Source of the DNA: Siphonodentalium dalli
Taxonomy: Eukaryota; Mollusca; Scaphopoda; Gadilida; Siphonodentaliidae
DNA: 64,000 nt
Assembly: GCA_032622095.1 (NCBI GenBank)
Contig: CP136063.1
Coordinates: 31,498,987-31,562,986, forward strand
Direction of reading: 5' to 3'
Shown here: positions 3,380 to 43,828 of the stretch, piece by piece
Position numbering within the stretch: the stretch's first letter is position 1
Layout: each line of letters begins with the position of its first letter
Program-made: the position numbers and the translations under genes
The notes under the pieces: model-generated
Databases searched by the model: none
Told to the model about the DNA's origin: nothing
Seen by the model: only the letters and a program-made list of their open reading frames with translations

Positions 3380-4061
3380 CAATATATATATGCAGAAACG
3401 TGAAGATTGTATCAGATAATAATGAAAATAGCAACAGCAATAAAATAACGATGTGTTCAATTTGGTTTCTCTTTTAGTTCTCCCTTCGATCTCGTCACTT
3501 CTTCTCGAGCCGAGAGTTCCGGTTCACTTTCCGGTACAAACTTATCGCCGCTCCAGCTCCGGTCACTTCTAATAGAATTATGTCCCATTGATTAGAAACC
3601 CAATTTCACAGCATAACTACAAACGTCTAGCAGCCAAGTACCGGATTTTCCCCTAACCCAAAATTCTCTGTTAAAGTTTTTTTTCTCGGCGGATAATTTA
3701 TTAGTAGTATCTCCGCAAATGTTTTCCGGTTGATGTGCTCTTGTAACCCTTGGGGAAAATTAAATATTCAATATTGCAACAACCTACCCAAAACGACATA
3801 TGGCCATATGGGTGTGATCATGTTTTATTCAGAAGCAGTAGTTGGAAATCACGTTAGAACGTTGGTTTATGTGCATATGTACACACCAGATCACAAAAAT
3901 GTTAACATCTTACTTTTATAGGATTATACAGAATGGCCGTCACACAATCTACATTTTTATGTTACGAAAATATACACTTTCGAAAAAAGACTCAATGGTG
4001 ACACCCAATATGATACGTGTTACATGTTCGCATGTGCATGTAGAACAAAAGTAGGTCAAAT

Positions 4062-6513
4062 ATGTCGAAATGCTTATTCAAATTTCGTTACAAAGAAGCT
4101 TGCAATAGCAACGAAAGGTGCACTGAAAATGCCGGTGTGGCCCTCCATCTAGACACCGTTGAAGAGATGATTCCTCTTTTCGTCGCAGCTGGATACACTC
4201 ATTATGTCAGATATGCACTATATTACCTGCGGTCAATGTAATCACTACCGGGTGATGTTCAGAAGCCATTCATGAAGGGTTAGCATACTATGAACCACAA
4301 CAGTGGCATTGTTAATGGCATTTGGAGTGATATGTTGATTGAGACCACCTCCATGCGGTATGGTCATGGACGCCCAGGTATAATCACCATCACACTGAAA
4401 CCAGAGAGTGTTCGCACATGGGAATACAGTTTGAATACATGCAATTGCCTGATATACGATTTGGATTGTATGCGAGAGAAGGGAGGCGAATGCACTCAGA
4501 CATGTCATAAAGAAGTATATCAAGTTCAAGAATAAAGGTTGACAAGGCTGATCGAGATTCACTAAAACATAAGCTGGAGCTGTGCATTGACCCACTTGAT
4601 CCGGGGCAGCATCCACAAGAGATCGCTAATGTGGAGTCCGGACAAGTCCTCCGTCAATGTAGATAATGCCATGGAACTTGGACGAGACCAGATGATAAAT
4701 TTCGAAAAAGGTTGGCCGTCCAGTTTCCATAAGACAATAATCCGGAACGTGAAAACAACTACAACAGCTAGTATTAGTAGGCATATAAACATTGGCAACG
4801 TACGCATTTTTGACACGGAAGTGATTTATGTGAGAGCAATGGGGTTAAAGAATAGTACGATGAGCTTGGATATTGATGAAATCCTTTCGTACGAGCTATC
4901 GCCCTATCCACCTTCAATGTTTGAGTCTAACGGATATAGGAAGGAAGCCTGAAGAATGCGCTGCGTGTTGCCATCATAGCTGACGTACCAAAAGGCAATG
5001 TCAGCCATGCAACCTTCCTAGACGGCTGTGAAATATTATGGACAGTACGATGGCCATCGCTTGGGGTAGTGCAAGATTTCCTTGATGAATTACGGCTTAT
5101 ATACTTGCAACACTGACATAGAAAACAGATGTATACTTGATATTCGATAGGTATAAACTCAGCATCAAAAAATCGACGCGATTAGCCCGAGATAAAGGGG
5201 CTAGCAGAGTCTTCACATCAAGCAAAATCAAGCAAAACACGAGGTTATCCTCACAAGAAGTTATCCTGACAGTGAGTGACAACAGAACACAGCTTATTGA
5301 CATGATTGTTAATGATCTCCAGGTGCAAAAGGAGGAATGTTTTGCCAATACAAATAAACGACTTAGTAACGCTGAAGGGGTCACTCTCACCAAAAAAGGG
5401 CTGAAGGGTACACATGATTTGAAAATGTGCTGAAGGGTACACATGATTTGAAATGTCATTCTAAATGACGTTTAGTTTTCGTATCTGCCATGATTTCTCT
5501 TAGAGAATAATTGTTTACGTTCCAATGAACATTAAAATGAACTGAAAACAAACTGCTAATGGGCGCCAGTCTTTCAGAAACACAGTTTAAGTAACGGTGT
5601 TAGTGGCGATCACAAACACTTCGTACCCTTCAGCACGTTTTCAAATCCTGTGTACCCTTCAGCACTTTTTTGGTGAGAGTGACCCTTTCAGCCTTAGTAA
5701 CGGGAAAGGATCCAATTCCTATAGAGATTAATAAGGGCATATGTATCAATAGGCGTGATCTCATATCGACCCATGAAGAAGGAGATACTCTTATTGTTTA
5801 GCATGTTGCGAGAGTAGCAACCCAAACATCGTTGGTTGTAGCAAATGACACCGACATATTTGTAATGCTACTCCATTTCCTTTATCACGGTGATTTATCC
5901 GGCCATGTACTGGTGGTAGCACCGGCAAAGGGGCGAACACAATAAACATCAATGAAACGCTCAAAGTTCTCATGAATATCGCTCGTGACCTTTAGCAATG
6001 CATGGACCCACATGATGTGACACTGTCGCGGCTCTACATGGTATAGGCAAATGTACAGCCTTTAACATTCTCAAAGTGGGAAGTTGCAATATAACATACA
6101 TTAGTGTGCCGTCCGTTTCAATTGAAGAGTTGTAGATGCGGCTACATTTTTGGGTCGCTATGGACAACCAAATTGCCAATCAAGCACAGATGCTCGACGG
6201 AAGCGCCAAAACTGAAATCTCTACCTCCAACCGACGATGCTGTAATATGGATAAATATTAAATGCACCCACTTACGAGTATGTGTATGGATACATGCGCT
6301 TGATGACACACCTGCTTACCTACATCCAACTGATTACGGCTGGTCGAGAGAGAACGGATCACTCGACCCAACCGTTGTTCCAACTCGGCAACCACTAGCT
6401 CCTAAGACTATACTAAAACTCATTAGATGTTGTTGTGCTTAAAATGTCTTTGCATGACCAAACGTTGTGGTTGTAGGCGTGCGGGTTTAACTTGCACGGC
6501 GTTCTGTTCGTGA
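4062..6513 (+). pseudogene. Transposon-borne FEN-like nuclease with C-terminal CXC motif, decayed
   Basis: Plus-strand coding is spread over all three frames with stops and frameshifts. The pieces in order are: EEMIPLFVAAGYTHYVRYAL (4.14-4.24 kb), GIWSDMLIETTSMRYGHG (4.32 kb), LELCIDPLDPGQHPQ (4.58 kb), VIYVRAMGLKNS and LSYELSPYPPSMF (4.83-4.92 kb), IFDRYKLSIKKSTRLARD (5.14 kb), ISTHEEGDTLIV (5.77 kb), VANDTDIFVMLLHF (5.84 kb), CDTVAALHGIGKCTAFNILK (6.02 kb), TEAPKLKSLPPT (6.21 kb), and a Cys-rich end CLCMTKRCGCRRAGLTC (6.44-6.51 kb). I recognise this order from a family of uncharacterised predicted proteins common in fish and marine invertebrates, often with a tesmin/TSO1-like CXC end. The acidic clusters plus the GCD...GIGK hairpin recall FEN/XPG nucleases; that function is inference. 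The copy is dead, and part of its N-terminus may be missing. Confidence 0.7.
5371..5692. mobile_element. 322-bp MITE with 9-bp target duplication
   Basis: The left end (GCTGAAGGGGTCACTCTCAC) is the inverted repeat of the right end (GTGAGAGTGACCCTTTCAGC), and the match extends about 55 bp inward. A subterminal motif GCTGAAGGGTACACATGATT is present twice near the left end, with an inverted pair near the right end. The 9-bp sequence CTTAGTAAC flanks both ends (5362-5370 and 5693-5701). Skipping the element with one copy of the duplication rejoins the conserved protein sequence on either side. The target length suits Mutator-like or related families. There is no coding capacity. Confidence 0.85.
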
Positions 6514-7080
6514 GAGGGGAACTGTCGGTGTATGAACGAGCTGACACATCGACATGACGAGGAAAATACTGGTGACATACACTGACTATTCTAGGTACAT
6601 TCTTTATGCAATACACCAATGCTGACGTACATATGTCATTATAATTATTTTGTTTCTGTCCCAATGACATGTTGTTACAAAATAAAGCGAAAATTATATA
6701 TGTTGGAAGCACTCTCTTGATACTCTTGCAACAGATATGATTTGAGCTATGAGAGCGGCCATTTCTTGAGTATTTAATTGTCGATTTTGTCCAGTTTATG
6801 TCATTTGTCACAGCATGTCAATGAATACATCGTATCGTATTTCTGCTGCCAAATATGATGTTATTGATACGGAATTGCCGCTGACATGGTCAAGGTATAC
6901 ACACTATTAAAGACTTTTGGGCACTCAGCGGCCATCTTGAATAAAAAAGGTCCCCAAAGGTTACACATCCACATCAACCGGAATATCAATAAAGACACCA
7001 CCGTGATACATTATCAACAGAGATAAAAACTTTAACAGAGAATTTTGGGTTAGACCTCAGTTCTGCTGGACTTTAGCCTC

Positions 7081-7343
7081 TTCACCCTTTCATGATGGGA
7101 GCTGCGCTGGTGCTGCATTAAAGATCCCGAGCCAGGACATTCTCTCATATATGCGAGTCTCCCATATGGAGCCTCGCATATATAAGAGAATGAACTGGCT
7201 AACAAGATGAAGATGAATATTGTTAGGCCAATGCATTATCTGATATATACGAGGCGCCCAGTTTTTGGCAAAAAATATCTGATATATACGAGGCGCCCAG
7301 TTTTGGCAAAAAATCAGGAAGCTCCAGTCATAGAACGGTTAAA
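7081..7343. repeat. Foldback MITE with ATTCTCTCATATATGCGAG hairpin
   Basis: The ends are inverted: CCTTTCATGATGGGAGCT on the left against GCTCCAGTCATAGAACGG on the right. It encloses a long hairpin at about 7139-7195 (ATTCTCTCATATATGCGAG and its complement around a short loop). Copy A carries a 38-bp tandem duplication (7241-7312) that copy B lacks. It is adjacent to a sister element at 7488-7730. No coding. Confidence 0.6.
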
Positions 7344-7487
7344 TATAACTTCCAGTTATGGATTGTTCATGGTGTTTGCTTTTTCAGTAATGATTTGACA
7401 TGTTCATGAAAGGGTTAAAGACAAGCAAACCATAAACAACCCTGAACTGGAAGCTAGAAAACATACCAATATAATTATATATGTATA

Positions 7488-7730
7488 TTTAACCCTACCA
7501 TGATTGGAGCTTCCTGAACTTTCACGAAAACATTGTGCCAATGCATTCTCCTATATATGTGAGTCTCCCATATGGCATATATAAGAGAATGCACTGACTT
7601 TCAAGATCAAGGTAAATATTGTATATATATAGGTATTCTCTCATATATGAGCGACTCACATATATAAGAGGATGCATTGGCACAGGGTATTCGCGAAAAT
7701 TAAGGAAGCTCCAGTCATGGAAGGATTAAT
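7488..7730. repeat. Second foldback MITE of the same family
   Basis: The left end (TTAACCCTACCATGATTGGA) and the right end (TCCAGTCATGGAAGGATTAA) are inverted repeats about 35 bp long. The interior holds two more hairpins related to the one at 7,139. A fragment of the same family is visible at about 38,430-38,500 (AACCCTTTCATGACTGGAGC). The copy B counterpart is at about 39,833-40,073. Confidence 0.6.
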
Positions 7731-7790
7731 TATAGCTTCCAGTTCAGGGTTTGCTTTTTCAGTATGGATTTGACATGTTGATAAATATAT

Positions 7791-8318
7791 TTAAAGGTGG
7801 ATTATCTCTTTGTAAATATGTATTATATAGTTACCGGGGTATAATATATTAGATTTGAATCGAAGACTCCTGTCCGGAAATGCTTCTATCGCTTAATATT
7901 AATTTTATTTCGAATATTTTCTGGTCCAAAAAGGTGTGTTTGTTCAGCTAACGAACAATAGTGGTTAATGTTAACAGAGACCAGAAATGTTATTTAACAA
8001 TTTTGTCACAAATAAACGTTAATTATACTTATTAACGCTTATATCTGTGGAACAAAACAGTACACACAACCAATCTGTGATATTTGACTTTCGTTGAGTA
8101 GCCACAGGAACAGCCCAGTGCTCTATATCGCAATACGTTGTCATCCGAATTGTCTGTTCTAAAAATAGTAACATGAACGGTCCCGATTTAATATTCGAAA
8201 TAAAATCAATATTAATTGATAGAAGCTTTTCCGGACAGGGGTCTTCAGTTCATATCTATTATTTTATACACACGCAACTATTTAAAATTTGTTATATAAA
8301 GAGATAATCCATCTTTAA
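7791..8318. mobile_element. 528-bp foldback MITE, family F1 (copy A)
   Basis: The left terminus (TTAAAGGTGGATTATCTCTT) pairs with the right terminus (AGAGATAATCCATCTTTAA). Imperfect inverted homology continues for 130-170 bp, including GAAGACTCCTGTCCGGAAAT against TTTTCCGGACAGGGGTCTTC. TATAT is found on both sides and may be the target duplication. Further members: 40135-40662 (inside copy B), 60971-61476 (inserted in a LINE), and two widely separated arms at 30479 and 34613. No protein frame is conserved. Confidence 0.75.
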
Positions 8319-8919
8319 TATATCTGAATATACAACTAAATAACTGGAGTCTTATAGTACATATGTTACACATTGTAACGTGTCCTGGAATTTTGTGAGT
8401 GATTGTTTTAGCAAACATTACATATGTCCACATTTTTATGCGACCAATGATATGCGTTGCATATATGAGTATTATATAGCCTACATGGCATTTATGTTGG
8501 TCAAACCCTGTACTGTGAACAGGTGAGGTCAAACTGATACATATATTTGTTCTCCAATTATGACCACAATGTCAGCTGAGTTTCTCATTAATATTATTCG
8601 GCGGTCCTGAAAATACCAGGTCATAATTTTATGGTACATCACAAAGTTGCCCGGAGGATCACATATGTGTGGTTGATAATTTGAAATTTTACAAGTGATA
8701 TTTCAACAGATTTTTTTTTTGTTTAAAAAAAAATTGAGCTTGTGTCAGACAATATGCAAAATCAGTGGGCCAGTCTTTAGTTTATCTCTTTATATAGTAT
8801 GAGCTCTATGTAAGATAATGTCAGGCAACCCCTAGCTGTGATATATGTGTGGTCAAAACTTTCACCAATACAACATCAATACTACATCATGCAACATGTA
8901 ATATAGAAACAAAAGCTGT

Positions 8920-9624
8920 ATTATCCAGGAACATAATAGAGTGCATGGGCTAGAAAGACCCACCATGTACGTCAACAATGTTTGCTTAGCAGCCATTTTG
9001 AAATTGAAGACATCTACCAAAAGTAAATAATCAAATATCATCATCATTCTAGTTGATTTCTTTGGACTCGAAAACATGGGTTTGGGGGTCAAAATGATGT
9101 TTCTCCGAGATTTTTTGATGAAAATATGGGTCAAAATTTGGATTTTGGTGGCCATCTTGGAAAATGGCGGAAAACCAGTTTCCGGTTGGTCGAATGCAAT
9201 TCCCATTAACTTTAATGGATTATATGACCCTGAAAACATTGGTATAGACACCAAAATTATGCGTCTAGGTGCATCAGAACCTGAGATATATGAAAAGGTA
9301 ATTTTTCGCGGCGGCCATTTTGAAAAATTGCGGGAAACCGGTGTCCATCCCTACATATTTCTTGGTAACATGACTAATCTTATTCAGGAAGGTCTAACGA
9401 ACAAAATGATACCACTTTCGGAGGATCTTGTGGGGTGCATGGGGGTGTTTCTAGCCCACGTACTAAAACATTTGTTTGCGTTCCACTTATTTGGCGCTAC
9501 GATACTGAAAGCACGATTGGCTGGGGTAGACCGTCCCGTGTTGTTGATGAGTCTGACATCTATGTCTGGGCAATCTCTCACAACTTCCCCGTCGAGGAAA
9601 TTGTGGGCTGAAGTTTGTTTATAA
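8920..9624. other. Repeat-like region with a 182-codon open frame
   Basis: A plus-strand frame from ATG 9076 to 9624 is open for 182 codons in both copies of the duplication. It reads through non-coding-looking repeats (GGCCATCTTGGAAAATGGCG and GCGGCCATTTTGAAAA). The segment is flanked by inverted sequences (CATGGGCTAGAAAGACCC near 8,945; its partner near 9,440). I recognise no protein family, and the minus strand is also open over part of it. The sequence is most likely an interspersed repeat; conservation between A and B says little because the duplication is recent. Confidence 0.3.
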
Positions 9625-9693
9625 TGTACCGCCAGGTATATTTCTTATAAACTTCTTGAAATGTGTCTATCTTTGGTGTGATTTTTTTGGTGT

Positions 9694-9736
9694 CCCGTTA
9701 TTTACTAAAGGTGATTTTCTTTTACTAAATAACGGG
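9694..9736. repeat. Short hairpin
   Basis: CCCGTTATTTACTAAA and TTTACTAAATAACGGG form a near-perfect stem of about 16 bp around an 11-bp loop. It is present unchanged in copy B at 42040-42082. Function unknown; probably the end or core of a small foldback element. Confidence 0.5.
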
Positions 9737-11095
9737 AATACTAAAGTTATATTTCTTTGAAAAACTCAAAACATTGGGCGACGACGGGGAAGTCGTATGG
9801 TATTGCCGTGAATGGTATTGAAAATGGTTAAAAGTTGCCAAAATAATCGTTTGACGTTTGAGCTGTGACGTATCTAAAGGTCCACCCCCTGATAACTAAC
9901 GTTGGTCAAGAACTGCTTGTAAATCCAACTTCGAATTCATGGAATAAATAAATCCGATAAGCAGGAATAATGCACAAACGAAAATGGCTCCTCTGAAGAA
10001 TTGCTATTATTTGTTATTCCAATATTAACGGAAATCAGTTTGGTCATCGGCCAGATCGTCATTTACCTCCCGCGCTTTGTGGTGTTTATTTCGCTTATAA
10101 AACGGACGCCATGCTTATAACATAAATAGAGGATATGAAATGAGTGTTTCTCTCATATGATATTTATGAAACGAGTCTAAGAAAGTTCAGTATTGAATAC
10201 TGAAAATTCGTGACGAGTTTCATAAATATCATATGAGAGAAACACGAATTACATATTGTATTTATCCTATGACACCTATAAATTGATTATGATGTCCAAA
10301 ACGCACACAAATCACTAAATAGCTATATGACATCGGCAGCAAAAGGTTAATGTGACGCCACGTAATTGCACCGGAAGCCCAATTACACCTGGTGAACTAG
10401 TAGAAATAATATGCACGCGAAGATATAGTGCGCTATTATGTTCTCAGTTTGTGACATTATATCGTATGTGTATTAGATAACTACGAATTACATATTCTAT
10501 TTACCGTATAACAATGTCCAAAACTATATATTTCAAGATTATAACTGCGAGAATTTCGGCATCGCGTTGATTGACGGGCACGGATTTGACCTGCATTTAG
10601 TTAGAGATGCTGCTCGGCCCCGGCTGCCAATCAGCCAATCAGAACACACTTTTGGTCAACAAACCAATCAAATTATCGGAAGGTGATATGAACTAGTAAT
10701 TGATATGAAATTGATTTATGACATACTTTCCAACGTAAATAATGATTGAGTCATATGATAAAACTATGTAATATCTATTTAGATAACGCCGACACAGAAA
10801 GTTTAGAAAATTACTTCAGTCGGAGACATTCAATGGGCACATGGACACGACAACTAGGTATTCGTTAATTAAAATAAAACTAATCGCCGACATAGACAAT
10901 ATCATGATTGTGGCTCGCGAAGGGGGTAAGAGAATATATATATATTATTTGTTCAAAGTTTATATATTACACTATCAAATAACCATGATTTGCTTCTTGC
11001 TGGTTTCTGACATTTTGAACCAGCAGACGGTCAGAAATGTTCTACAAAGGCAGACGTCTCGTTGATATTGGCCTTCCGGCCTTCGGTCATCCGGT
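9737..11095. other. Upstream region of zinc-finger gene A
   Basis: No convincing gene here apart from the hairpin at 10144-10245. A 74-codon frame at 10841-11065 is open in both duplicates but is not recognisable. The segment would contain promoter or upstream introns of the zinc-finger gene. Confidence 0.3.
10144..10245. repeat. Foldback with perfect 29-bp arms
   Basis: GTGTTTCTCTCATATGATAT and nine further bases are repeated perfectly in inverse orientation, and inner bases pair partly as well. In copy B (42490-42609) the loop is 18 bp longer and contains its own small palindrome (CTCGAGCCTCCGGCGAGAG). The arms themselves are identical between copies. Confidence 0.75.
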
Positions 11096-11099
11096 GTTG

Positions 11100-11400
11100 T
11101 TACTCCCGCATATATACAATACCAACGAGGTGTCTATCTGTAACATAGACTATGTAAATGATATTGTTCTATTCCGACCTCCGTTGTTTAAAACCACTTT
11201 TTGAAATGCCCTTTTCGGAGCTGACATATTTTTATTTTATATGACGCGTGTGTTCAGTACAGTAGCGTTTCTTTGGACACGAGTCTAACTGCGTCGTCTT
11301 TGTGATAAATTTAACTCTTGCATGAAATGTTCTGTAATATTTAATAAGGCAATTATATTAATACAACATACGGATCGATTGAGCCATCAACACTGGAGAC
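11100..11400 (+). promoter_or_regulatory. Conserved 5' block of the zinc-finger family (copy A)
   Basis: This upstream block aligns with those of the other zinc-finger genes at 34737-34960 (plus), 30030-30250 (minus) and 43460-43745 (plus). Shared landmarks in order are TTCTATTCCGCACC-like, TTAAAACCACTT, CACCCTTTTC-like, TTTTATTTT, and TTTAACTCTTGC/TTCGTGAGATTT. The order and spacing are kept in all four. It probably contains the promoter and first non-coding exon; that role is inferred. Confidence 0.4.
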
Positions 11401-11480
11401 TGGAGAAGAGAAAAACACACCGGAGAATACTTCTCAAACACAGATGGACTCGTTTACCTGACAATTGTACGAGCAAATAG

Positions 11481-12878
11481 ATGTTCATTCCTATCAGTGC
11501 TATCTATGCTGGAAATCATACATCACATCTAAAACTTTGCTGTCACATAAAAAAAATCCACGCGGGAGATCGCCCACATGAATGTGATGTGTGCAAGAAA
11601 TCATTTTCAAGGTCGAGATACCTGACGAAACATAAGAGGAATCACATGGATCGCACGTATCAATGTGATGTGTGCGAGAAATCATTTACTCGGTTGTCTA
11701 GCCTGACGACACATAAGAAGATCCACACGGGAGATCGCCCGTATCAATGTGATGTATGCGATAAATCATTTACTCGGTCGAGTGATTTGAAGAAACATAA
11801 CATGCTCCACACTGGAGATCGCCCGTATCAATGTGATGTGTGCGATAAATCATTTACTCGGTCGAGTGACCTGTCTTCACATAAGAGGATCCACGCGGGT
11901 GATCGCCCGTATCGATGTGATGTGTGCGATAAATCATTTACTGAATCGAGTCACCTGACGAGACATAAGAGGATCCATACCGGAGATCGCCCGTATCAAT
12001 GTGAAGTTTGCGAGAAATCATTTAATGACTCGAGTCATCTGGCTTCACATAAGAGGATCCACAGCGGGGATCGCCCGTATGAATGCGATGTGTGCGAGAA
12101 ATCATTTACTGAGTCGAGTCACCTGACGAGACATAAGAGGATCCATACCGGAGATCGCCCGTATCAATGTGAAGTGTGTGAGAAATCATTTAATGACTCG
12201 AGTAATCTGGCTTCACATAAGAGGATCCACACGGGGGATCGGCCGTATCACTGTGATGTGTGCGATAAATCATTTACTGAATCGAGTCACCTGGCGAGAC
12301 ATACGAGGATCCACGCGGGTGATCGCCCGTATCAATGTGATGTGTGTGAGAAATCATTTAATGACTCGAGTAATCTGGCTTCACATAAGAGGATCCACAC
12401 GGGGGATCGACCATATCAATGTGATGTGTGCGATAAATCATTTAATCAGTCGAGTAACCTGACTGCGCATAAGAGGATCCACACGGGAGATCGCCCGCAT
12501 CAATGTGACGTGTGCGTGAAATCATTTAATCAATTAGGTTGTCTGACGGAACATAAGAGAATCCACACGGGGGATCGCCCGTATCAATGTGATGTGTGCG
12601 AGAAATCGTTTACTCGGTCGAGTGACATGGCGACACATCAGAGGATCCACACAGGGGATCGTCCATATCAATGCGATGTGTGCGAGAAATCATTTACTTA
12701 TTCGAGTGATCTGACGAAACATAAGAGGATCCACACCGGCGATCGCCCGTATCAATGCGATATGTGCGAGAAATCATTTACCCAGTCGAGTCACTTGACG
12801 GAACACAAGAGGATACATTCCGGGGATCGCCCATATCAATGCGATGTGTGCGAGAAAAGCATTTACTTATTCGAGTGA
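11481..12878 (+). CDS. C2H2 zinc-finger protein, copy A (15 intact fingers)
   Basis: Fifteen consecutive C-X2-C-X12-H-X3-H fingers with linker TGDRPY, about 84 bp per unit, typical of DNA-binding poly-zinc-finger regulators in the nucleus. Fingers 6-11 are three repeats of a two-finger unit (TESSHL/NDSSHL). A leader related to the other family members (EPSTLETGEEKNTPENTS, near 11,380) precedes but is broken by an in-frame TGA just before the first finger. Relative to copy B one extra A in a poly-A run at about 11,550 shifts finger 1 out of frame. The array ends at 12878 by a frameshift (CGAGAAAAGCATTTAC) shared with copy B. Contact residues differ from copy B at helix position -1 of finger 4 (Arg, codon 11775) and finger 15 (Tyr, codon 12699). 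Whether this is still a working gene is uncertain. Confidence 0.75.
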   Translation: MFIPISAIYAGNHTSHLKLCCHIKKIHAGDRPHECDVCKKSFSRSRYLTKHKRNHMDRTYQCDVCEKSFTRLSSLTTHKKIHTGDRPYQCDVCDKSFTRSSDLKKHNMLHTGDRPYQCDVCDKSFTRSSDLSSHKRIHAGDRPYRCDVCDKSFTESSHLTRHKRIHTGDRPYQCEVCEKSFNDSSHLASHKRIHSGDRPYECDVCEKSFTESSHLTRHKRIHTGDRPYQCEVCEKSFNDSSNLASHKRIHTGDRPYHCDVCDKSFTESSHLARHTRIHAGDRPYQCDVCEKSFNDSSNLASHKRIHTGDRPYQCDVCDKSFNQSSNLTAHKRIHTGDRPHQCDVCVKSFNQLGCLTEHKRIHTGDRPYQCDVCEKSFTRSSDMATHQRIHTGDRPYQCDVCEKSFTYSSDLTKHKRIHTGDRPYQCDMCEKSFTQSSHLTEHKRIHSGDRPYQCDVCEKSIYLFE

Positions 12879-13945
<1,067 letters not shown>

Positions 13946-13949
13946 ACAT

Positions 13950-14575
13950 TTGCGCAGGGCAGTAGTCTTGTATCGTCTACTAGAGTTACATGGAAGGTGT
14001 TTGTAATTATGTACGTTTAATTTACTGGTACTGTACATTTAACCGCAGTGATTGAATTTACTTTACCAGTTAAAATATAAATCTTTTAATCTTCATCAAC
14101 ACTTGATGAGAGTCACTGCAATGATTATTGACATTCAAATTTGACAAGATTTTAATATGTTTTTCAATCATGGCTTACGTATTTAACTTGCAGTATATAC
14201 CAGTACACACAGAACAGTGATCTTAATATACACAGCCTATTCCAAAAAACATGTCCATATCCAATTGGCTCAGTACGACACATTACATTATATGTGACTA
14301 AACATTCTTTATATACAAGAACTTTGAAGAAATTTTCATTTCAAGTCAACTGACCAGTGTTTGCGTACTGACGTAACACGACCCACTATAACATATGAAA
14401 TGGTTCCCATCATGCGCATTTACATTTTTGTGTAAATACATTTTTGTTATTACATGAATTTACATCACACACAATTGTTTGTACTCGCACATTACAGTTC
14501 CACTGGCCGAAAGGACTCCCTGCCACATAAGTATTCTCCATATGACTCCTCATAAAACAAGCTTTTTCTCACTAT
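13950..14575. other. Gene-free 3' flank of zinc-finger gene A
   Basis: AT-rich sequence without recognised genes or strong repeats; an AATAAA-like context near 14,080 could serve polyadenylation. It is repeated in copy B at 46400-47035 with a 9-bp insertion near 46,540. Confidence 0.35.
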
Positions 14576-14581
14576 CCCCCA

Positions 14582-15382
14582 CCCATATAAAAATGTACCT
14601 GGGTAAATCCACCCAGGTTTTTAGGGCCGAAACCCAGGTATAAATCTATCTACCAAGACATCCACCAACATCAAGACCCCCTGAAACCTGGGTTTTACCA
14701 TGATTTACCCACCTGAAACAGGATAAAAAACCCTGGTATGGATAAACCTGGGTGTAATTACCCAGGTGACCACACCCAGGTGTACCCTACCTGGGTGTTT
14801 CCCACCCAGGTGTTTCCTACCTGGGTGTTTCCCCACCCAGGTGTACCATGGTGTTATTCACCCAGGTGTACCCTGATGTTTCCTACCTGGGTGTTTCCCA
14901 CCCAGGTTACCTTGGTTTTATTCACCCAGGTGTACCCTGGAGTTTCCTACCTGGGTGTTTCCCACGCAGGTGTACATAGGTGTTATTCACCCAGGTGTCC
15001 CCTGATGTTTCATGTTTCATACCTGGGTGTTTCCCACCAGGTGTACCTTGGTGTTATTCACCCAGGTGTACCATGATGTTTCCTACCTGGGTGTTCCCCA
15101 CCCAGGTGTACCTTGGTGTTTTCTTACGCCGGTGTACCTTGGTGTTTTCTTACCCAGGTGGATTTCCCATTGAGATGCCCCTGGGTTAGAAAACCCCAAG
15201 GTACACCCAGGTAAGGAAACACCAAGGTACACCTGGACAGGAAAACACCAAGGTACACCTGGGTAAGAAAACACCAAGGTACACCTGGGTAAGAAAACAC
15301 CAAGGTACAACTGGGTGGGAAACACCAAGGTACACATGGGTAGGAAACACCAAGGAACACCTGGGTGAATAACACCACTGAG
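14582..15382. repeat. CACCCAGGTG minisatellite that inverts at 15,175 (copy A)
   Basis: From about 14,740 to 15,170 a higher-order unit of about 65 bp recurs. Each unit is a 25-bp part (CAGGTGTACCTTGGTGTTAT and five more bases) plus a 40-bp part containing CTACCTGGGTGTTTCCCACC. After 15,175 the same 25-bp unit runs in reverse complement to 15,382, giving a foldback array. The left edge (CCCATATAAAAATGTACCTG) resembles the inverted right edge of the related repeat at 60,190-60,217. Long open frames on both strands (Pro/Trp/Val/Phe-rich) result from the repeat and are not genes. Confidence 0.85.
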
Positions 15383-15389
15383 TGGGGAT

Positions 15390-17340
15390 ACCAAAGTGCA
15401 GCAATACAAGTTTATTCAAGGACAACAAACTAACTAAAGATAAAATACATATATAGAAACACATGTAATATATAAATATATAAACTCATTAAACTGCATG
15501 GGTTAAAACTTACTGACAACAAGAGTTGGGTTAAAATTTTGATTAAAAAACACTTGCAAATTCCCTCTTCATACATGTATATGGTATGTTAGGCAAGTTA
15601 CATGTACATGTAGTTGCAATGTATACCGGTACATGACATACCGGTGGACACAAAAATCATTATTTTAGTTCCAATGTCATTTACCAGAATACATGTACAT
15701 GTTGTACCTTGCAACTACATCTACAGGGAGGTAGTTTTGTCTCATTGAAACTTTCTCCCTTTGAATGACATAAACTAATGTCAGTATACACATGAGCCAT
15801 GATGTGAAATACACACCAAAATTATTTCTTAGTCTGAGGGCATGTTTCCTGTCATTATCTTACTGCTTACAAATATAGATTTGTAATAGTGTGCTGTAAT
15901 GCTCCAGAAATAGTCATATTTTGTCCTGGTTCATAAGAACACATTATTTCTTAGTGTTAGAAGGACATGTTGCCTGTTATTATTTGACTCATAAACCCCC
16001 AAATGTACATGTAAACAGAACATTTGGGAAAGAGACACACCATCTTTTTTTTTATATCAGTAGCAATTGATCAGATAGCAAAATATGCTATAAAAAATAG
16101 ATTTCAGATGGTAGAGATTAAACAATCACATTAATTGCACCAACTCGAAACAGTTAACATACCCTGCAGAATCCAGACTATGATCAAGGAGGGTGTCACA
16201 CACACCCCCACCCGCTTTGGTATGCGATATTCAGGCCATTTTCAGGTGGTATGCTATATACATACCCAATGTTATCTGGTACCAGGATTTCACACAGTAA
16301 TATAACCGGCATTCATGATTCAGCAAAAAGGCTAGTATGCAGATATAATACCGGTAGCAGAAAATTATACAAATTTTGAGTATTTTCCAGCCTAAACAGT
16401 CCCAAGTGATATATTTTTATCTAATTCAGTCTAATACCTCTTGATATGTTGATGTTTTGGATACTATTTCAGCAAATGTGAGAAAACTGTGAACTTGTAT
16501 TCAGTATTCATGGGTGGTAGGGGGGTAACACCAGCATAAAGGCCACTCACAATTGAATACACCAGTATGGAAGGTGTCACCACCCCCACCCCCAATACCA
16601 GTTAATGTAAAAGGTTGAATCATGCGTACCAGTTACAAGTAAGAAAATATTGAATGAAAAGTAATATTACACTAATAATATAGTTTTCATATACATGTAC
16701 TAGTATTTGCTGAAGTTGTATCCATAACTTCTACATATACTATAGATAATAGACTGAATTACATCATAAATGTCATTTGGCTGGTAAATAGTAAAACAAA
16801 ATTAATTTTGTGCCAGAAAATCTGCGAACCGGCATTTTTGTTGAATCCTGAATACCGGTTAAACTGTGCAAATGAATCCCGACTACCAAATTAGCAGAGG
16901 GGTATGAATCATGCGTACCGCCTGAAAATTGTACTTAAATGTTTTCAATTTACTTCATTTACAAGTACATGTACCTGCACATGTAGCTGATTCACCTAAC
17001 AATGTTTTCATCTTTAAATATGTGAGATCCAACCGGAAATCATTTGAGTACTGTGCATAAGTCCGAGAGTCTGATAACCTGGGTATTTAATAGTCCCAAT
17101 GTTTGGTTATTATACAGTGTATATTGTCTCAAAATGTGTAATCTCAATGCCCAGTTTATAGCGAGGCAGTCAGGTCACAAAATATATTACCCAAAGCATC
17201 AGTACATGTATGCATAAACTATCAATTGCATAAATATTGCATTAATTTGTGTACATTTGTATGGGCAATACATGTTATGTCATGAGTAATTTATTTTGTA
17301 TGAGGGTAATACTATTACCATACTTGTACATTTGTATATA
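15390..17340. other. Gene-free repeat-rich interval
   Basis: No gene recognised. The sequence is AT-rich with many TACATGTA and ACCGGTA palindromic motifs, poly-A/T runs and short duplicated phrases (AATCATGCGTACC twice, near 16,620 and 16,908). The counterpart in copy B is 47845-49800. Confidence 0.4.
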
Positions 17341-18180
17341 ACTAAATTAATTCTTTCAAACCCGGGTACCATGAATTGAACCGTTGGACCATTTGAACCC
17401 TCAAACTATTGAACTTCCTGACAATCGAACTACTAGTAATGAACACTCTGACTAACGCACTGTACATGATTGAGTTAATGGTTATGTGACCTCAGGAATT
17501 GGTCCAAGTAATTTTTCTGATTTACTAGTAAATGTCATTCAAATTGTTCCAATTGTATCGACCTACCGATTTTTTGTTTTCATCCAAATTTCAATGAAGG
17601 ACTACACACGTGTACCAGTACACGTAAATGTACCAAGACGGTCCAAGAGGCCCCCATTTACAATGAGAGGCCGCAATAATAATAGTCTCCCAAGTTGTAA
17701 TCTTCAGGCTCAGTTTATAGCGACAGTTACATGTAGGTAACATACTAGTAGTAGACACCCAATTATACACAAAATATCTTCCCCAAAGCATCTATCAGTA
17801 CATCTACATGCCCAGGCCCCTGGGGAAAAAAAACTGAAATACCAATATAGACTATACCAGTCGCTGGTATAGTCTATATTGGTATTATTGTATTTTTCTC
17901 CAGGGGTTTGTGAAGTTGTGAGTAGATATATTCATAAAATATCAATTGGATAAAACATGCATTGTGTACATGCACATGTACATGTGTATATCGACAATAC
18001 ATGTTACATGTAAGTCTCAAGTAAATAACTTCTATATTTCTGCTTTAAATGTCAATCAAATTGTCCCCATTATATGGACTTATCGATTTTTGGTTTTCAT
18101 GAATTGCATTCAAAAAGCCAAATTACACTGAGGAACTATACACATGTAAATGTATTAAAAGCCCTCCATTTGCAACGAGA
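17150..18180. repeat. Old tandem duplication of about 0.6 kb
   Basis: Landmarks occur twice in order: CAGTTTATAGCGA (17,153 and 17,711), CCCAAAGCATC (17,190 and 17,783), ATAAACTATCAATTG/ATAAAATATCAATTGGAT (17,214 and 17,934), and CGATTTTTTGTTTTCAT / CGATTTTTGGTTTTCAT (17,568 and 18,083). In copy A the second unit lost about 225 bp at 18,027, which is retained in copy B at 50479-50703. No coding. Confidence 0.65.
17817..17906. repeat. 90-bp foldback with perfect 23-bp stem
   Basis: ACCAATATAGACTATACCAG (17841-17860) and its exact complement (17864-17883) flank a 3-base loop; the perfect stem extends to 23 bp. Outer arms CCCCTGGGGAAAAA and its partner continue the pairing with mismatches. It interrupts the second unit of the local tandem duplication and is conserved unchanged in copy B (50265-50354). 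It could be a tiny MITE or give rise to small RNA. Confidence 0.75.
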
Positions 18181-18794
18181 GGCTGCAAATGAGTAAGGCA
18201 GTGATGCAGTGTGCAACTGCACCAATTCTATAATCTACCCACAAAGTGACATATAATGGTCTATCCCTAAATAGAACATATGGTACATGTACGTCATGGT
18301 AAGTACTGTAAAAAATTATCTGGTGAAAGGCTGTCTTGAGAAAAATTAATGTGGTGTACCACGGTTGAAACACTGCAGTAATTCACTTGGTTACAGCCGT
18401 TAACAAAAATATTACTGCAGTAAGATTTAATACCAGCGGATACTGCATTAGTGTTTAAATGGCTTGGGTTGTTCATAGTTGAATAATCGACAATAAAAAA
18501 TCAAGTCGGAGTAGACTAATCGACCCATTTCCATGGAAAACTTCCAATTTGCTATGTGGTTATTGAGTTAAAATCAATGAGAGATAACTGTAGTTCCCAT
18601 TTTGTGTGGGACGTACTGATTCATTGTATTGGGATACACTGTGACTATCAATGATACACGTATCATATCATGTGTATTGTGATACAGGAAATCAAGTAAT
18701 ATTTTAAGATGGGAATGTGTTAACTTGAGCAAAACCTGTAATTTCCAAAGTTTAAATGCCTATTATGTGTATTAACTCATATAGCTAAATAATA

Positions 18795-19021
18795 ATGGTG
18801 CTCAATCAGATTTGAATGTCCCCATATAATCAGATTCCAACAACAACAACAACAACATTTAAAAAAATGCTGCTTCATTTATCAGAATCGATTAATTGCC
18901 CAAAAATAATGCTAACCACTGTCAACTACATGTATAGTATAAAATTGCCCGATACGTGATATTTATCAACATGTTGTTCGATGAAGTTTGGCCTTATTAT
19001 CAACACAAAGCCTCTTGATTT
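18795..19021. repeat. Left arm of a foldback element, truncated by the duplication limit
   Basis: This is the left arm of the foldback that is complete in copy B (about 51466-52325). In copy A it stops at CCTCTTGATTT, exactly where homology to copy B ends; the right arm is absent. It includes a (CAA)n run at 18,838. Confidence 0.8.
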
Positions 19022-20185
19022 ATACAGTTGCTATCGAAACATGCTACATGTGTGATATAAGGTCGTACTGAAAACACAATATGCATTACAACTATTAAAT
19101 ATTCAATAAAGTTCGCATATGACGTCATACGTTTATCCGTTGTGGCTCAGTTTCTAATGATAACTTTTCTTGAGACCAAATTCTTATATTCTGTGCGATG
19201 GTAGTTAAAGAGATGATAAACCACCTAGATTACTTTTGTTAAAATATTAACACAACATAATATATAAATTCTTTTTAATAGAGAATAAAAGAACAGGTTC
19301 AGTCGACGTTATCTCAGCATATTAGAGTCCACTAACCCCTCTTGTTGCGACCCTTCCCGAAAGTTCGAAAGTGGAAGGGAACGCCGAAAGGCCGTGGAGT
19401 CACGCACAGAGAAACCGATGACGGCTTTATATATGCGGTTCATACATGTATACACAAAACGTTTGAATTTCGTAGACTTGCACCATTTTGGACACGTGCA
19501 TCTGCAGTCAAGCTGGCTGTTACTGGTCATATATCAAAATATATTTCTAATCTTCTGTCCACCAGTAGCAATGCACAGCATGACTACAGTCACCTGTGTT
19601 AATAATATATTCATGTCATAGTTATTTCAGAATTTCAGAACACTGACCCTTTTGAGAATATTAACATGGAGTAATTATTTTTCTAGCGCGTGTAAATTAT
19701 GAAAATAATAATAGACCTATTTGCTATCTAAGCACGGCCTGTGTGTATTTTTAAGGCTTTTAAGGTTTTAAGGTCTCGTTCACAAGATTATTCATATATA
19801 TCCAATCATTGACCCTTTTGAAATGAGTAATATGCACCAATTCTTTATGATTTTTTTTCTGTTTGTTTGTTTTATTTTATTTATTTTTGTCCACGTGTAA
19901 GTAAGTACATAAGTAAAATTTAAATATAAATTCACTGATACATGTTATTTGTGATATATTAACATGATTACTTAGACTGTGTCTTGTAAATTGACATGTA
20001 AATGTAAGTTTAAAGTCGATGATTTATTCCAAAATCAATAGAACAATGACCAATTATGTACATGAATGTGAATGCAAAGCTTGAGCAATCACTTGTAAAG
20101 GAAAACGAAGACGAGAAAATAAAACGGCTGAACTACCCACAATAGGAATGCATGTATGGTCATGCTATAGTTTGATTGGTGGCAA
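19022..20185. other. Gene-free interval
   Basis: Unique AT-rich sequence after the end of copy A. A TATGACGTCATA palindrome (CRE-like) lies at about 19,119. No gene recognised. Confidence 0.3.
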
Positions 20186-21799: not shown

Positions 21800-22615
21800 T
21801 TGTCCACCATTACACCGGAAGTACTGATTGAGACATGGAAACACCGATTACTGATACCTATTGGTCGAATAACTGTAATAAAATCACTTATACTCCCAAA
21901 ATTAACACACCTTTTCATGTCACTTCCAAATCCAGATAAAACATTTATGAAAAAATTGGACACTATGCTTTATAATTTTCTATGGAATTCAAAACGTGAT
22001 CGAGTGAAACGCAAAGTTGTATGCCAAGATTACAAAAACGGTGGCTTGAAAATGGTTAATGTCAATAATTTTATGCTGTCAATGAAAATAACTTGGATGA
22101 GACGCCTCATAACAAAGAGCGCCAAGTGGATGCCCCTCACAGATATTCCATTGTGCGAAGACCCCATGTTCCTTACATATGAGCATGGCTATTTAGAGAA
22201 ACAGGCAAAGAAACTAACAAATCCATTCTGGCATGACGTTTTGTTATCATTTGTCAAATGTTTACAACAAAATGTGAACAATTGCAATATATCCACATGT
22301 ACGCTGTGGAATAATTCAAATATAAAACAATATGGAAACGTAATAAACTTCACTTCTTGGCGCGAAAGAGGGATTATGTATATAAATGATATGCTAGATA
22401 GTAAAGGTTTTTTTCTTTCACAAGAAGCCTTACATAAGACATTTAATGTACGCACAGACTTCATCAATATAAACACTATACAGCAGCAGATAAAATTAAC
22501 AGCAAAAAAGCTTGGCCAACAGATAACTCTAGTTTCTTATCCCATTCTACCCACTAACTTCAGCACTTTGCTTAAAAATTCGCGGGGAGGACAAGATTTT
22601 TACTTTGTCTGTTAA
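21800..22615 (+). pseudogene. L1/Tx1-like LINE, C-terminal part of the ORF2 reverse transcriptase protein
   Basis: An open frame of about 271 residues begins with WKHRLLIPIGRITVIKSLIL, followed by PKLTHLFMSLPNPDKTF, FLWNSKRDRVKR and NGGLKMVNVNNFMLSMKITW. This is the conserved region after the reverse transcriptase domain in L1/Tx1-type ORF2. Endonuclease and polymerase motifs are missing upstream, so the copy is 5'-truncated. Downstream of the stop at 22613 no typical CCHC end was found. It lies opposite to the ORF1 at 20191-21408 and belongs to another insertion. Confidence 0.75.
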
Positions 22616-29172: not shown

Positions 29173-29976
29173 TTAATACGGCCGATCCCCGGTGTGTATC
29201 CTATTATGTCTCGTCAGGTGACTCGACTGAATAAATGATTTCTCGCACACATCACACTGATACGGGCGATCCCCGGTGTGGATCATCTTATGTCTCGCCC
29301 GGGTACTCGACTCAATAAATGATTTCTCGCAAACATCACACTGATACGGGCGGTCACCCGTGTGAATCCTCTTATGTTTCGTCAGGTGACTGGACCGAGT
29401 AAACGATTTCTCGCACACACCACATTGATGTGGGCGATCCCCTGTGTGGATCATCTTATGATTAGTCAGGTGACCCGACTGAGTAAATGATTTCTCGCAC
29501 ACATCACATTGAAACGGGCGATCCCCGGTGTGGATCCTCCTATGTATTGTCAGGTTACCCAGGTCACCAAATGCTTTCTCGCACACATCGCATTCATATA
29601 GGCGATCCCCAGCATGGACAATCGCCAGGTTACTCGACACAGTAAATGATTTCTCACATATATCACATTGATATGGACGATCTCCTGTATGGGTCCTATT
29701 GTGTCTCGCCAGGTCACCCGACTGAGTAAATGATTTATCGCACACATCACATTGATACGGGCGATCCCCCGCGTGGATCATCATATGTGTCGTCAGGGGA
29801 CCCAGCTGAGTAAATGATTTTTCGCACTCCCCACACTGATACGAACCCTTATGCTTTGTCTTACTGTGCAAACTGATTAACGGCTCTGAGTTCACGGCCA
29901 TCTGTGACGTATTTATCGGCGTGTGTTTATCATCTTCAGTCTTCGTTGTTGATGGATCCACCTCCCCATACATCAT
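29173..29976 (-). CDS. C2H2 zinc-finger protein C (minus strand)
   Basis: A 267-residue frame begins MMYGEVDPSTTKTEDDKHTP (ATG 29976). The N-terminal leader (about 45 residues) lacks KRAB, BTB or other known domains and is shared with the gene at 34979. Eight finger units follow (residues about 50-267), linker TGDRPY. Finger 3 is damaged: its histidine half is lost (SSNLAIVHAGDR), giving a short joint with finger 4. The frame stops at 29173 within the next linker, and degenerate fingers continue. It stands head-to-head with the plus-strand gene at 34979, with matching 5' blocks. Confidence 0.75.
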   Translation of the reverse strand: MMYGEVDPSTTKTEDDKHTPINTSQMAVNSEPLISLHSKTKHKGSYQCGECEKSFTQLGPLTTHMMIHAGDRPYQCDVCDKSFTQSGDLARHNRTHTGDRPYQCDICEKSFTVSSNLAIVHAGDRLYECDVCEKAFGDLGNLTIHRRIHTGDRPFQCDVCEKSFTQSGHLTNHKMIHTGDRPHQCGVCEKSFTRSSHLTKHKRIHTGDRPYQCDVCEKSFIESSTRARHKMIHTGDRPYQCDVCEKSFIQSSHLTRHNRIHTGDRPY

Positions 29977-30029
29977 GAGTTAACCTGTTAGACCTGTTAA
30001 CTGTATCTGTAAAGTTTATGTACGGAATA

Positions 30030-34736: not shown

Positions 34737-34960
34737 AATATTTCAAGTGCAATTACTTTTTGTTTGTAAACTATGTATTGCGACATCGTTCTATTCCCCA
34801 CCCCACTGGTTAAGACCACTTATTTAAACACCCTTTTCTGGACAGAAATATTTTTTCTTTTCATCTTAACTGTATCGATTGTCGGTTCGATAATTTTAAC
34901 TCTTTCGTGAGATTTCCTGTTAGCTTTTGTCAGGTAATCTCATGTAAGCATATATATGGG
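34737..34960 (+). promoter_or_regulatory. Conserved 5' block of zinc-finger gene D
   Basis: This is the mirror image of the block at 30030-30250 and related to those upstream of copies A and B. Landmarks include GTAAACTATGTATTGCGACA, TTAAGACCACTTATTTAAAC, AACTGTATCGATTGTCGGTT and CTTTCGTGAGATTTCC. A promoter/leader role is inferred from its conservation and position 20-240 bp before the start codon. Confidence 0.5.
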
Positions 34961-34978
34961 CAGGTGAAGCCATCAACA

Positions 34979-36034
34979 ATGAACACTGAAGATGATAAAC
35001 ACACGCCGATAAATACGTCACCGATGACTGTGGACTCGGAATCGTTGAGCAGTTTGCCCAGTAAGACAAAGCATAAGGGTTCATATCAGTGTGGGGTCTG
35101 CGAGAAATCATTTACTCGCTCGAGTCACTTGACGACACATATGATGATCCACACAGGAGATCGTCCGTACCAATGCGATGTGTGCGAGAAATCATTTACT
35201 CAGTTGAGTAATCTGAATATGCATAAGAAAATCCACACAGGAGATCGTCCGTACCAATGCGACGTGTGCAAGAAATCATTTACTCAGTTCAGCTACCTGA
35301 CGACACATAAGATTATGCACAATGGGGATCGCCCGTATCAATGTGATGTGTGCGAGAAATCATTTACCCAGTTGGGTAATCTGAACATTCATAAGATGGT
35401 ACACACAGGAGATCGTCCGTACCAATGCGATGTGTGTGAGAAATCATTTAGTCAGTTCGGTAATTTGAACATGCATAAGAAAATCCACGCGGGATATCGC
35501 CCGTATCAATGTGATGTGTGCGAGAAATCATTTGCTCAGTTGAGTTACCTGACGACACATAAGATGATGCACAATGGAGATCGCCCGTACCAATGTGATG
35601 TGTGCGAGAAATCATTTACTCAGTTGTGTAATTGGAAGATTCATAAGAGAATCCACGCGGGAGATCGCCCGTATCAATGTGATGTGTGCGATAAATCATT
35701 TACTCAGTGTGGTGCCCTGACGACGCATAAGAGGATCCACACCGGGGATCGCCCGTATCATTGTGATGTTTGCGGTAAATCATTTACTGTGTCGGGCCAT
35801 CTGACGAAACATAAGAGGATCCACACGGGGGATCGCCCATATCATTGTGATGTGTGCGGGAAATCATTTACTGAGTCGGGCCATCTGACTAAACATAAGA
35901 GGATCCACACGGGGGATCGCCCGTATCATTGTGATGTGTGCGATAAATCATTTACTGTGTCGGGCCATCTGACGAAACATAAGAGGATCCACACGGGGAA
36001 TCGTACGTATCATAGTGATGTGTGCGATAAATAA
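34979..36034 (+). CDS. C2H2 zinc-finger protein D (11 intact fingers)
   Basis: The first ATG in the frame is at 34979 (MNTEDDKHTPINTSPMTVDS), which also fits the leader shared with gene C. After about 35 leader residues come 11 intact C2H2 fingers with linkers TGDRPY, NGDRPY or AGDRPY. Fingers 1-8 carry QL/QF-type helices (FTQLSNLNMH, FTQFSYLTTH); fingers 9-11 form a recent tandem block (FTVSGHLTKH, FTESGHLTKH). The twelfth unit has Cys to Ser (YHSDVC) and a stop at 36032-36034. Presumably a nuclear DNA-binding protein. It is in mirror orientation to gene C. Confidence 0.8.
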   Translation: MNTEDDKHTPINTSPMTVDSESLSSLPSKTKHKGSYQCGVCEKSFTRSSHLTTHMMIHTGDRPYQCDVCEKSFTQLSNLNMHKKIHTGDRPYQCDVCKKSFTQFSYLTTHKIMHNGDRPYQCDVCEKSFTQLGNLNIHKMVHTGDRPYQCDVCEKSFSQFGNLNMHKKIHAGYRPYQCDVCEKSFAQLSYLTTHKMMHNGDRPYQCDVCEKSFTQLCNWKIHKRIHAGDRPYQCDVCDKSFTQCGALTTHKRIHTGDRPYHCDVCGKSFTVSGHLTKHKRIHTGDRPYHCDVCGKSFTESGHLTKHKRIHTGDRPYHCDVCDKSFTVSGHLTKHKRIHTGNRTYHSDVCDK

Positions 36035-38294: not shown

Positions 38295-39176
38295 ATCACA
38301 CGCACGCACACATCACACGGACAACATATACAAAGTCACGGCAATAGCTCAAACTTTACAAGTAAATTTGAGCTAACAATAAGTCTGGTATGCATATATC
38401 CCCAAATTCAATCTCACACCATCACTGGTTAACCCTTTCATGACTGGAGCTTCCTGAAAATTTGCGAAAACCCTCACATGTATTCTGAAGGGAACACATT
38501 GGCCTACATGTTGTACGTAACAATATTTACCTTGACCTTGTACATGTAAGCAGGTGCATTCTCTTATCAATACGGTGCTCCTGTGGGACATTCACATAAC
38601 ACCATAAGATAATATACTGTACATGTAATGATGTGTCTGTTTTCTTTTCGGTAATATACATGCCCGCATAAAATTGTAGTGCGATCTGGCCATTACCGGT
38701 ACTTCTCAAGAGACCGGTCTGTCAATGCAGATGATGTCAATGTCAAAATGCGACAATGGAAAGATCCAGACCATGTTGCACGAAGTGCAGAAATACATGT
38801 ATTTGGTATCCATGTCAAATTCCATCGCAGTCGGTGCAGACATTTGGACGACTATATGGAACATACAACTAAATGTACATATATAATCAAAGTAATTAAC
38901 TTGAAAAATGGGGTGATACCATGGTAATACCGTAGTATACGGTATTCACAGCAGTATCAAAATAGTCACTGTGGTGGGGTTACGGTACTGTTTGGTTATG
39001 ATAGCACGGTTTATTAGCGGGTCTTGTTAAAGATACGGGAAGCGTTGCCGTGGCTATTGCTGTTAAAATGGTCACATCCATGAAAACCACCATAAACAGA
39101 AATAATATTATATTATAGACAAACCTGGTTCTTATACCAATCATAAATATCGCGTAAATTGCGACATGTTAGCAGG
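38295..39176. other. Gene-free interval before copy B
   Basis: A fragment of the foldback family of 7,081-7,730 occurs at about 38,430-38,500. Otherwise no gene or strong repeat was recognised. Confidence 0.35.
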
Positions 39177-39433
39177 TTATGTCATTTGTCACAGCATGTC
39201 AATGCATACATCGTATCGTATTTCTTCTGCCATATATGATGGTATTGATACGGAATTGCCGCTGACATGGTCTATGTATACACAATATTTAAGACTTTTG
39301 GGCACTCAGTGGCCATCTTGAATAAAAAAAAGTTCCCCAAAGGTTACACATCCACATCAACCGGAATATCAATAAAGACACCCCCGTGATACATTATCAA
39401 CAGAGATAAAAACTTTAACAGAGAATTTTGGGT
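39177..39433. mobile_element. Right end of the 3.4-kb TIR transposon, truncated
   Basis: This matches 6796-7050, including the complete right inverted repeat and the following TA. The gene and left end are missing because the duplication starts inside the element. Unrelated sequence precedes it. Confidence 0.9.
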
Positions 39434-40134
39434 TAGACCTCAGTTCTGCTGGACTTTAGCCTCTTCACCCTTTCATGATGGGAGCTGCGCTGGTGCTGCA
39501 TTAAAGATCCCGAGCCAGGACATTCTCTTATATATGCGAGTCTCCCATATGGAGCCTCGCATATATAAGAGAATGAACTGGCTAACAAGATGAAGATGAA
39601 TATTGTTAGGCCAATGCATTATCTGATATATACGAGGCGCCCAGTTTTGGCAAAAAATCAGGAAGCTCCAGTCATAGAACGGTTAAATATAACTTCCAGT
39701 TATGGATTGTTTATGGTGTTTGCTTTTTCAGTAAGGATTTGACATGTTCATGAAAGGGTTAAAGACAAGCAAACCATAAACAACCCTGAACTGGAAGCTA
39801 GAAAACATACCAATATAATTATATATGTATATTTAACCCTACCATGATTGGAGCTTCCTGAACTTTCACGAAAACCTTGTGCCAATGCATTCTCCTATAT
39901 ATGTGAGTCTCCCATATGGCATATATAAGAGAATGCACTGACTTTCAAGATCAAGGTAAATATTGTATATATATAGGTATTCTCTCATATATGAGCGACT
40001 CACATATATAAGAGGATGCATTGGCACAGGGTATTCGCGAAAATTAAGGAAGCTCCAGTCATGGAAGGATTAATTATAGCTTCCAGTTCAGGGTTTGCTT
40101 TTTCAGTATGGATTTGACATGTTGATAAATATAT

Positions 40135-40662
40135 TTAAAGGTGGATTATCTCTTTGTAAATATGTATTATATAGTTACCGGGGTATAATATATTAGATTT
40201 GAATCGAAGACTCCTGTCCGGAAATGCTTCTATCGCTTAATATTAATTTTATTTCGAATATTTTCTGGTCCAAAAAGGTGTGTTTGTTCAGCTAACGAAC
40301 AATAGTGGTTAATGTTAACAGAGACCAGAAATGTTATTTAACAATTTTGTCACAAATAAACGTTAATTATACTTACTAACGCTTATATCTGTGGAACAAA
40401 ACAGTACACACAACCAATCTGTGATATTTGACTTTCGTTGAGTAGCCATAGGAACAGCCCAGTGCTCTATATCGCAATACGTTATCATCCGAATTGTCTG
40501 TTCTAAAAATAGTGACATGAACGGTCCCGATTTAATATTCGAAATAAAATCAATATTAATTGATAGAAGCTTTTCCGGACAGGGGTCTTCAGTTCATATC
40601 TATTATTTTATACACACGCAACTATTTAAAATTTGTTATATAAAGAGATAATCCATCTTTAA
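40135..40662. mobile_element. F1 foldback MITE (copy B)
   Basis: Duplicate of the element at 7791-8318, with the same termini and a few base changes. Confidence 0.75.
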
Positions 40663-41421
40663 TATATCTGAATATACAACTAAATAACTGGAGTCTTATA
40701 GTACATATGTTACACATTGTAACGTGTCCTGGAACTTTTGTGAGTGATTGTTTTAGCAAACATTACATATGTCCACATTTTTATGCGACCAATGATATGC
40801 GTTGCATATATGAGTATTATATAGCCTACATGGCATTTATGTTGGTCAAACCCTGTACTGTGAACAGGTGAGGTCAAACTGATACATATATTTGTTCTCC
40901 AATTATGACCACAATGTCAGCTGAGTTTCTCATTAATATTATTCGGCGGTCCTGAAAATACCAGGTCATAATTTTATGGTACATCACAAATTTGCCCGGA
41001 GGATCACATATGTGTGGTTGATAATTTGAAATTTTACAAGTGATATTTCAACAGATTTTTTTTTTTGTTTAAAAAACAATTGAGCTTGTGTCAGACAATA
41101 TGCAAAATCAGTGGGCCAGTCTTTAGTTTATCTCTTTATATAGTATGAGCTCTATGTAAGATAATGTCAGGCAACCCCTAGCTGTGATATATGTGTGGTC
41201 AAAACTTTCACCAATACAACATCAATACTACATCATGCAACATGTAATATAGAAACAAAAGCTGTATTATCCAGGAACATAATAGAGTGCATGGGCTAGA
41301 AAGACCCACCATGTACGTCAACAATGTTTGCTTAGCAGCCATTTTGAAATTGAAGACATCTACCAAAAGTAAATAATCAAATATCATCATCATTCTAGTT
41401 GATTTCTTTGGACTCGAAAAC

Positions 41422-41970
41422 ATGGGTTTGGGGGTCAAAATGATGTTTCTCCGAGATTTTTTGATGAAAATATGGGTCAAAATTTGGATTTTGGTGGCCA
41501 TCTTGGAAAATGGCGGAAAACCAGTTTCCGGTTGGTCGAATGCAATTCCCATTAACTTTAATGGATTATATGACCCTGAAAACATTGGTATAGACACCAA
41601 AATTATGCTTCTAGGTGCATCAGAACCTGAGATATATGAAAAGGTAATTTTTCGCGGCGGCCATTTTGAAAAATTGCGGGAAACCGGTGTCCATCCCTAC
41701 ATATTTCTTGGTAACATGTCTAATCTTATTCGGGAAGGTCTAACGAACAAAATGATACCACTTTCGGAGGATCTTGTGGGGTGCATGGGGGTGTTTCTAG
41801 CCCACGTACTAAAACATTTGTTTGCGTTCCACTTATTTGGCGCTACGATACTGAAAGCACGATTGGCTAGGGTAGACCGTCCCGTGTTGTTGATGAGTCT
41901 GACATCTATGTCTGGGCAATCTCTCACAACTTCCCCGTCGAGGAAATTGTGGGCTGAAGTTTGTTTATAA
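41422..41970 (+). other. 182-codon open frame, copy B
   Basis: Counterpart of 9076-9624 with several amino-acid changes (for example Arg to Leu, Thr to Ser, Gln to Arg, Gly to Arg) and no stop. It is not recognisable as a protein family and is probably repeat sequence rather than a gene. Confidence 0.25.
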
Positions 41971-43745: not shown

Positions 43746-43828
43746 AGCCATCAACACTGGAGACTGGAGAAGAGAAAAACACACCGGAGAATACTTCTCA
43801 AACACAGATGGACTCGTTTACCTGACAA

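Follow-up and report, generated by a model that had tools for sequence, protein, structure and literature searches.

Academ transposons form a superfamily of the DDD/E type (PMC9587614, PMC9004415, PMC10294476) and are described from bivalves and fishes; the curated autonomous consensus elements of bivalves have a mean length of 5565 bp (PMC10294476). The AcademX lineage (Kojima 2020, as cited in PMC10045372) is recorded as encoding a nuclease and making target duplications of 3-4 bp, and AcademH as encoding a helicase. Accessory nucleases alongside a DDD/E enzyme are also described (PMC9587614) for KolobokP, KolobokE and KolobokD. Among other superfamilies, TA duplications are described for mariner relatives, and none or ones of 1-4 bp for Harbinger/ISL2EU relatives. 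We take the AcademX nuclease to be of the XPG type, and the protein described below to be linked to AcademX.

The element occupies positions 3653-7053 (3.4 kb) of the 64-kb window, the window being the whole stretch of DNA that was analysed. It is bounded by imperfect terminal inverted repeats (TIRs) of about 105 bp, at 3653-3756 on the plus strand and 6951-7053 on the minus strand, with 77.6% identity over 107 columns when the two ends are compared by BLASTN; their outermost 29 nt (3653-3681 and 7025-7053) are 100% complementary. The gapped local alignment of the repeats has a score of 89, whereas none of 200 shuffles exceeded 29; the match thus lies beyond chance, and a fortuitous pairing is ruled out. 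The first-pass annotation had put the repeats at about 120 bp, somewhat too long for repeats that are themselves real, and had placed the element at 3656-7050, which is correct to the base if the TA is counted as flank.

A TA dinucleotide does stand directly outside both 3656 and 7050 (at 3654-3655 and 7051-7052), as had been reported. The exact inverted match continues through this TA and one base beyond it (CTAACCC / GGGTTAG); since TA is self-complementary and lies within the exact inverted match, its presence at both ends follows from the repeat itself. Among boundaries from 3650 to 3661, exact 2-bp direct duplications are found at two (TA at 3656 and CC at 3652), and there are three candidate duplications of 3 bp, each with one mismatch and all from this single insertion; no boundary in that range gives an exact target duplication of 3-5 bp. 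Being its own complement, inside the inverted match and seen at one insertion, the TA is weak evidence for a target duplication, and one insertion cannot establish it as such.

The right end recurs at 39173-39436, with 94.7% identity over 264 bases, and the match extends outward piecewise for about 12 kb (6792-19029 against 39173-51697). The pieces of this segmental duplication are 95-99.5% identical and include a zinc-finger array as well as the element's right end. We therefore reject the idea that 39173 marks another, independent insertion, the right end there being the edge of the duplicated segment. Long reading frames for C2H2 zinc-finger arrays were recognised by eye at 11481-12878, 29173-29979, 34814-36034 and 43826-45241, and frames at 21800-22615 and 61676-62377 resemble, again by eye, the ends of non-LTR retrotransposon reverse transcriptases. 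Together with the range of the protein family described below, the zinc-finger arrays suggest that the DNA comes from an animal. At 7130-7751, adjoining the element, direct and inverted repeats with ATATATGCGAGTCTCCCATATGG-like units are clustered.

Between its ends the element holds pieces of one plus-strand protein (approximately 4062-6546), lying in natural order but spread over three frames, which bears out the earlier description of a single decayed gene. By manual reading the frame changes about ten times, and the pieces contain five stops or more. The coding pieces that precede the nuclease region (4062-4952) were aligned to an approximate row of the protein family; they are followed by the decayed FEN-like region in two parts (4982-5361 and 5697-6096) and by a C-terminal part (6215-6546) that ends in a Cys-rich tail. 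The CXC label given to this tail is one made by eye, and Pfam gives it no match. The joined read-through protein matches no Pfam family, DDE or other, at E values up to 10, in agreement with the annotation of the element as lacking a DDE transposase. When the eight pieces were searched singly against Pfam, two families came up, EB (0.077) and PTB (0.059), both below threshold and neither of them credible.

The two parts of the FEN-like region are separated by a MITE-like insert of 322 bp with inverted ends (GCTGAAGGGGTCACTC...), at 5371-5692. It interrupts the coding region and is flanked by a 9-bp target duplication, CTTAGTAAC, at 5362-5370 and 5693-5701; the length suggests a MuDR-like origin. 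The arms of the insert match nothing in the 64-kb window beyond themselves. Without the insert and one copy of the duplication, the element measures 3070 bp, compared with the 5565 bp mean given for autonomous bivalve Academ elements in PMC10294476.

The acidic clusters and the hairpin motif of the protein had been noted as resembling those of FEN/XPG-type nucleases, and the order and spacing of these residues support that observation. Aspartates at 5021 (FLDG) and 5146 (LIFDRYKLSIK), glutamates at 5775 and 5778 (HEEGD), aspartates at 5847 and 5853 (ANDTD) and at 6019 (CD), and the GIG of GIGK at 6040 parallel, in order, D27, D80, E152, E154, D173, D175, D236 and G244 of FEN1 (PDB ID: 1b43). 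The spacings, taken from DNA positions with the 322-bp insert left out, are 41.7/99.3/1/23/2/55.3/7 codons in the window, versus 53/72/2/19/2/61/8 in 1b43. Seven acidic positions in order are shared with FEN1/XPG and with T4 RNase H, a FEN-family nuclease, and the GIG hairpin lies 7-8 residues past the last aspartate as in FEN1. In contrast to FEN1/XPG, the window protein adds the Cys-rich tail and a long N-terminal part, and shows no significant sequence or profile match to these enzymes.

Two residue patterns were used to gauge this likeness. The tighter pattern matches all five FEN1 chains, the joined protein of the window and 2 of 20000 shuffles; T4 RNase H fails it, as do two approximate rows of the protein family, one from fish and one cnidarian. 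The looser pattern, designed after sight of the window sequence and hence illustrative only, picks up the five FEN1 chains, the window protein and both family rows, as well as 23 of 20000 shuffles. It misses T4 RNase H, the reversed protein and the presumed N-terminal half of the family. A six-frame control of the tighter pattern (0 in 127,996 residues) is uninformative, because a gene broken up among frames has no chance of a match in such a control.

Profile and structure comparisons, the checks suggested at the outset, gave nothing significant. Against FEN profiles, hhalign returned E values of 0.29 and 0.16 for the window protein alone, 0.81 and 0.82, and 0.16 and 0.59, for the family rows alone, and 0.15 and 0.21 for the window protein together with the two rows, with 0.36 for the reversed control. 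In its best alignment, itself not significant, the three-row profile nevertheless places CD..GIGK on the TDY..GIG hairpin of FEN1. A phmmer search of the PDB with the FEN-like region found five chains at E 0.17-1.8, none of them such a nuclease; hmmsearch with alignment A1 found one chain, FD15 (8ugc), with a whole-sequence E of 1.6e-4 and no single stretch passing. The AlphaFold model of one 84-residue piece is unusable (mean pLDDT 40.7). On the order and spacing of its residues, the protein is likely to be a FEN/XPG-like nuclease, with a putative fold of that type.

The protein was originally ascribed to a family of fish and marine invertebrates. Alignment to the two family rows agrees with this, at 39% identity over 717 columns for the fish row and 24% over 748 columns for the cnidarian row; the rows are approximate, however, and neither the ascription nor the alignment amounts to a database match. 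Neither row has a Pfam match. We presume that the family usually occurs as a large gene of its own, and that its full-length members extend several hundred residues further towards the N-terminus than the window protein does, in a part whose conserved motifs resemble a DDE core. Only about 300 bp (the 5' margin, 3757-4061 on the plus strand) lie upstream of the coding pieces, so there is no room for this N-terminal half; used as a query, this half finds nothing better than E 2.6 in 3641-4140 and, in the whole window at E up to 1, only an overlap at its own C-terminal end (E 0.11).

Scans of viral contigs, queried with the left end and with DNA patterns as well as with the protein and baits, and of prokaryote genome contigs found no relatives; the single-protein scans use a few 8-residue patterns and so reach close relatives only, in collections that are poor in animal DNA. 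A tblastn search of phages with a bait gave no match. Two contigs with pattern matches (L001 and L002) look by eye like ordinary phage-like DNA, and no XPG families were found in their records. A gene at 4640-5488 of the phage-like contig L001, which the motif pattern picked up by chance, matches T4 RNase H (PDB ID: 1tfr, E 3.8e-40).

Considered together with the described systems, the window element resembles AcademX in being a DNA transposon with a probable nuclease gene and differs from it in having no DDD/E transposase and at best exact 2-bp duplications where 3-4 bp are reported (PMC10045372). With the three Kolobok lineages it shares TIRs and, probably, an additional activity from a nuclease not of the DDE type; those lineages differ in that their nucleases are of the His-Me, PD-D/ExK or DEDDh type, their duplications are TTAA and a DDD/E transposase is present. 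We consider it moderately probable that the window holds a dead, internally deleted copy of an AcademX-like, TIR-bearing cut-and-paste transposon that was moved in trans, a reading that also accounts most simply for the locus. The full-length element would encode a DDD/E transposase, a nuclease of FEN/XPG-like type and a tail rich in Cys. Cutting and joining of the element ends would fall to its DDE part, the flap-type nuclease might trim 5' branched DNA arising in excision or gap repair, and the Cys-rich tail would bind DNA. The copy in the window would have lost the DDE half and kept both ends, remaining mobilisable in trans, with decay and the MITE insertion as later steps. The ends, the decay, the insert and the FEN-like residues are observed in the DNA; the DDE-like N-terminal half is presumed for the relatives, and we infer the deletion, the movement in trans and the task of the nuclease. 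Besides the mismatch in duplication length, the Pfam searches at E up to 10, which found no DDE remnant in the element, count against this reading, as do the non-significant hhalign comparisons with FEN and the unusable AlphaFold model. Since the DDE feature was looked for and is missing from the copy, we do not assign it to AcademX; a deletion derivative would lack the DDE part too.

The first-pass annotation had instead proposed a FEN-type enzyme acting in place of a DDE transposase, that is, a nuclease that excises and inserts the TIR element at TA as its sole enzyme. The copy in the window does have both ends and no other gene, and its FEN-like catalytic set is still recognisable. It is a single dead copy, however, in which TA is a candidate duplication, and the nuclease-bearing transposons described in PMC9587614 and PMC10045372 also carry DDD/E transposases. 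We regard the proposal as very improbable. Among the matches listed in the open-licence literature, no description of a transposon with only a FEN-type enzyme was found. The full-length relatives, as presumed above, have the extra DDE-like half. We also know of no flap nuclease that joins strands.

The ends might alternatively derive from another DDE superfamily with TA or very short duplications, Tc1/mariner-like or ISL2EU-like, whose transposase moves the element, with the FEN/CXC gene captured or accessory. The boundary originally chosen does give TA as an exact duplication, and the duplications given above for mariner and Harbinger/ISL2EU relatives would accommodate it; on the other hand, Pfam finds the DDE gene of neither kind in the element, and the ends of about 105 bp, together with the presumed habit of the family to form a large gene of its own, point away from capture, so that this origin is unlikely. 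A chance composite, in which the ends of one element happen to enclose a decayed gene that is host sequence or an insertion of other origin, draws on there being a single complete copy: the other right end belongs to the segmental duplication, and hence no second insertion links the ends with the gene. Such a composite is scarcely to be expected of gene pieces that keep one orientation and their natural order and leave short margins to both ends, around which no boundaries of a second element are seen. An internally deleted, AcademX-like copy moved in trans remains the reading that we prefer.

To our knowledge, the part played by a flap-type nuclease in the transposition of elements that combine it with a DDE enzyme has not been worked out. 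If the element is AcademX-like, it would be one more trace of transposons that unite a DDE enzyme and a flap-type nuclease; if elements with the nuclease alone were shown to jump, they would represent a new transposition chemistry.
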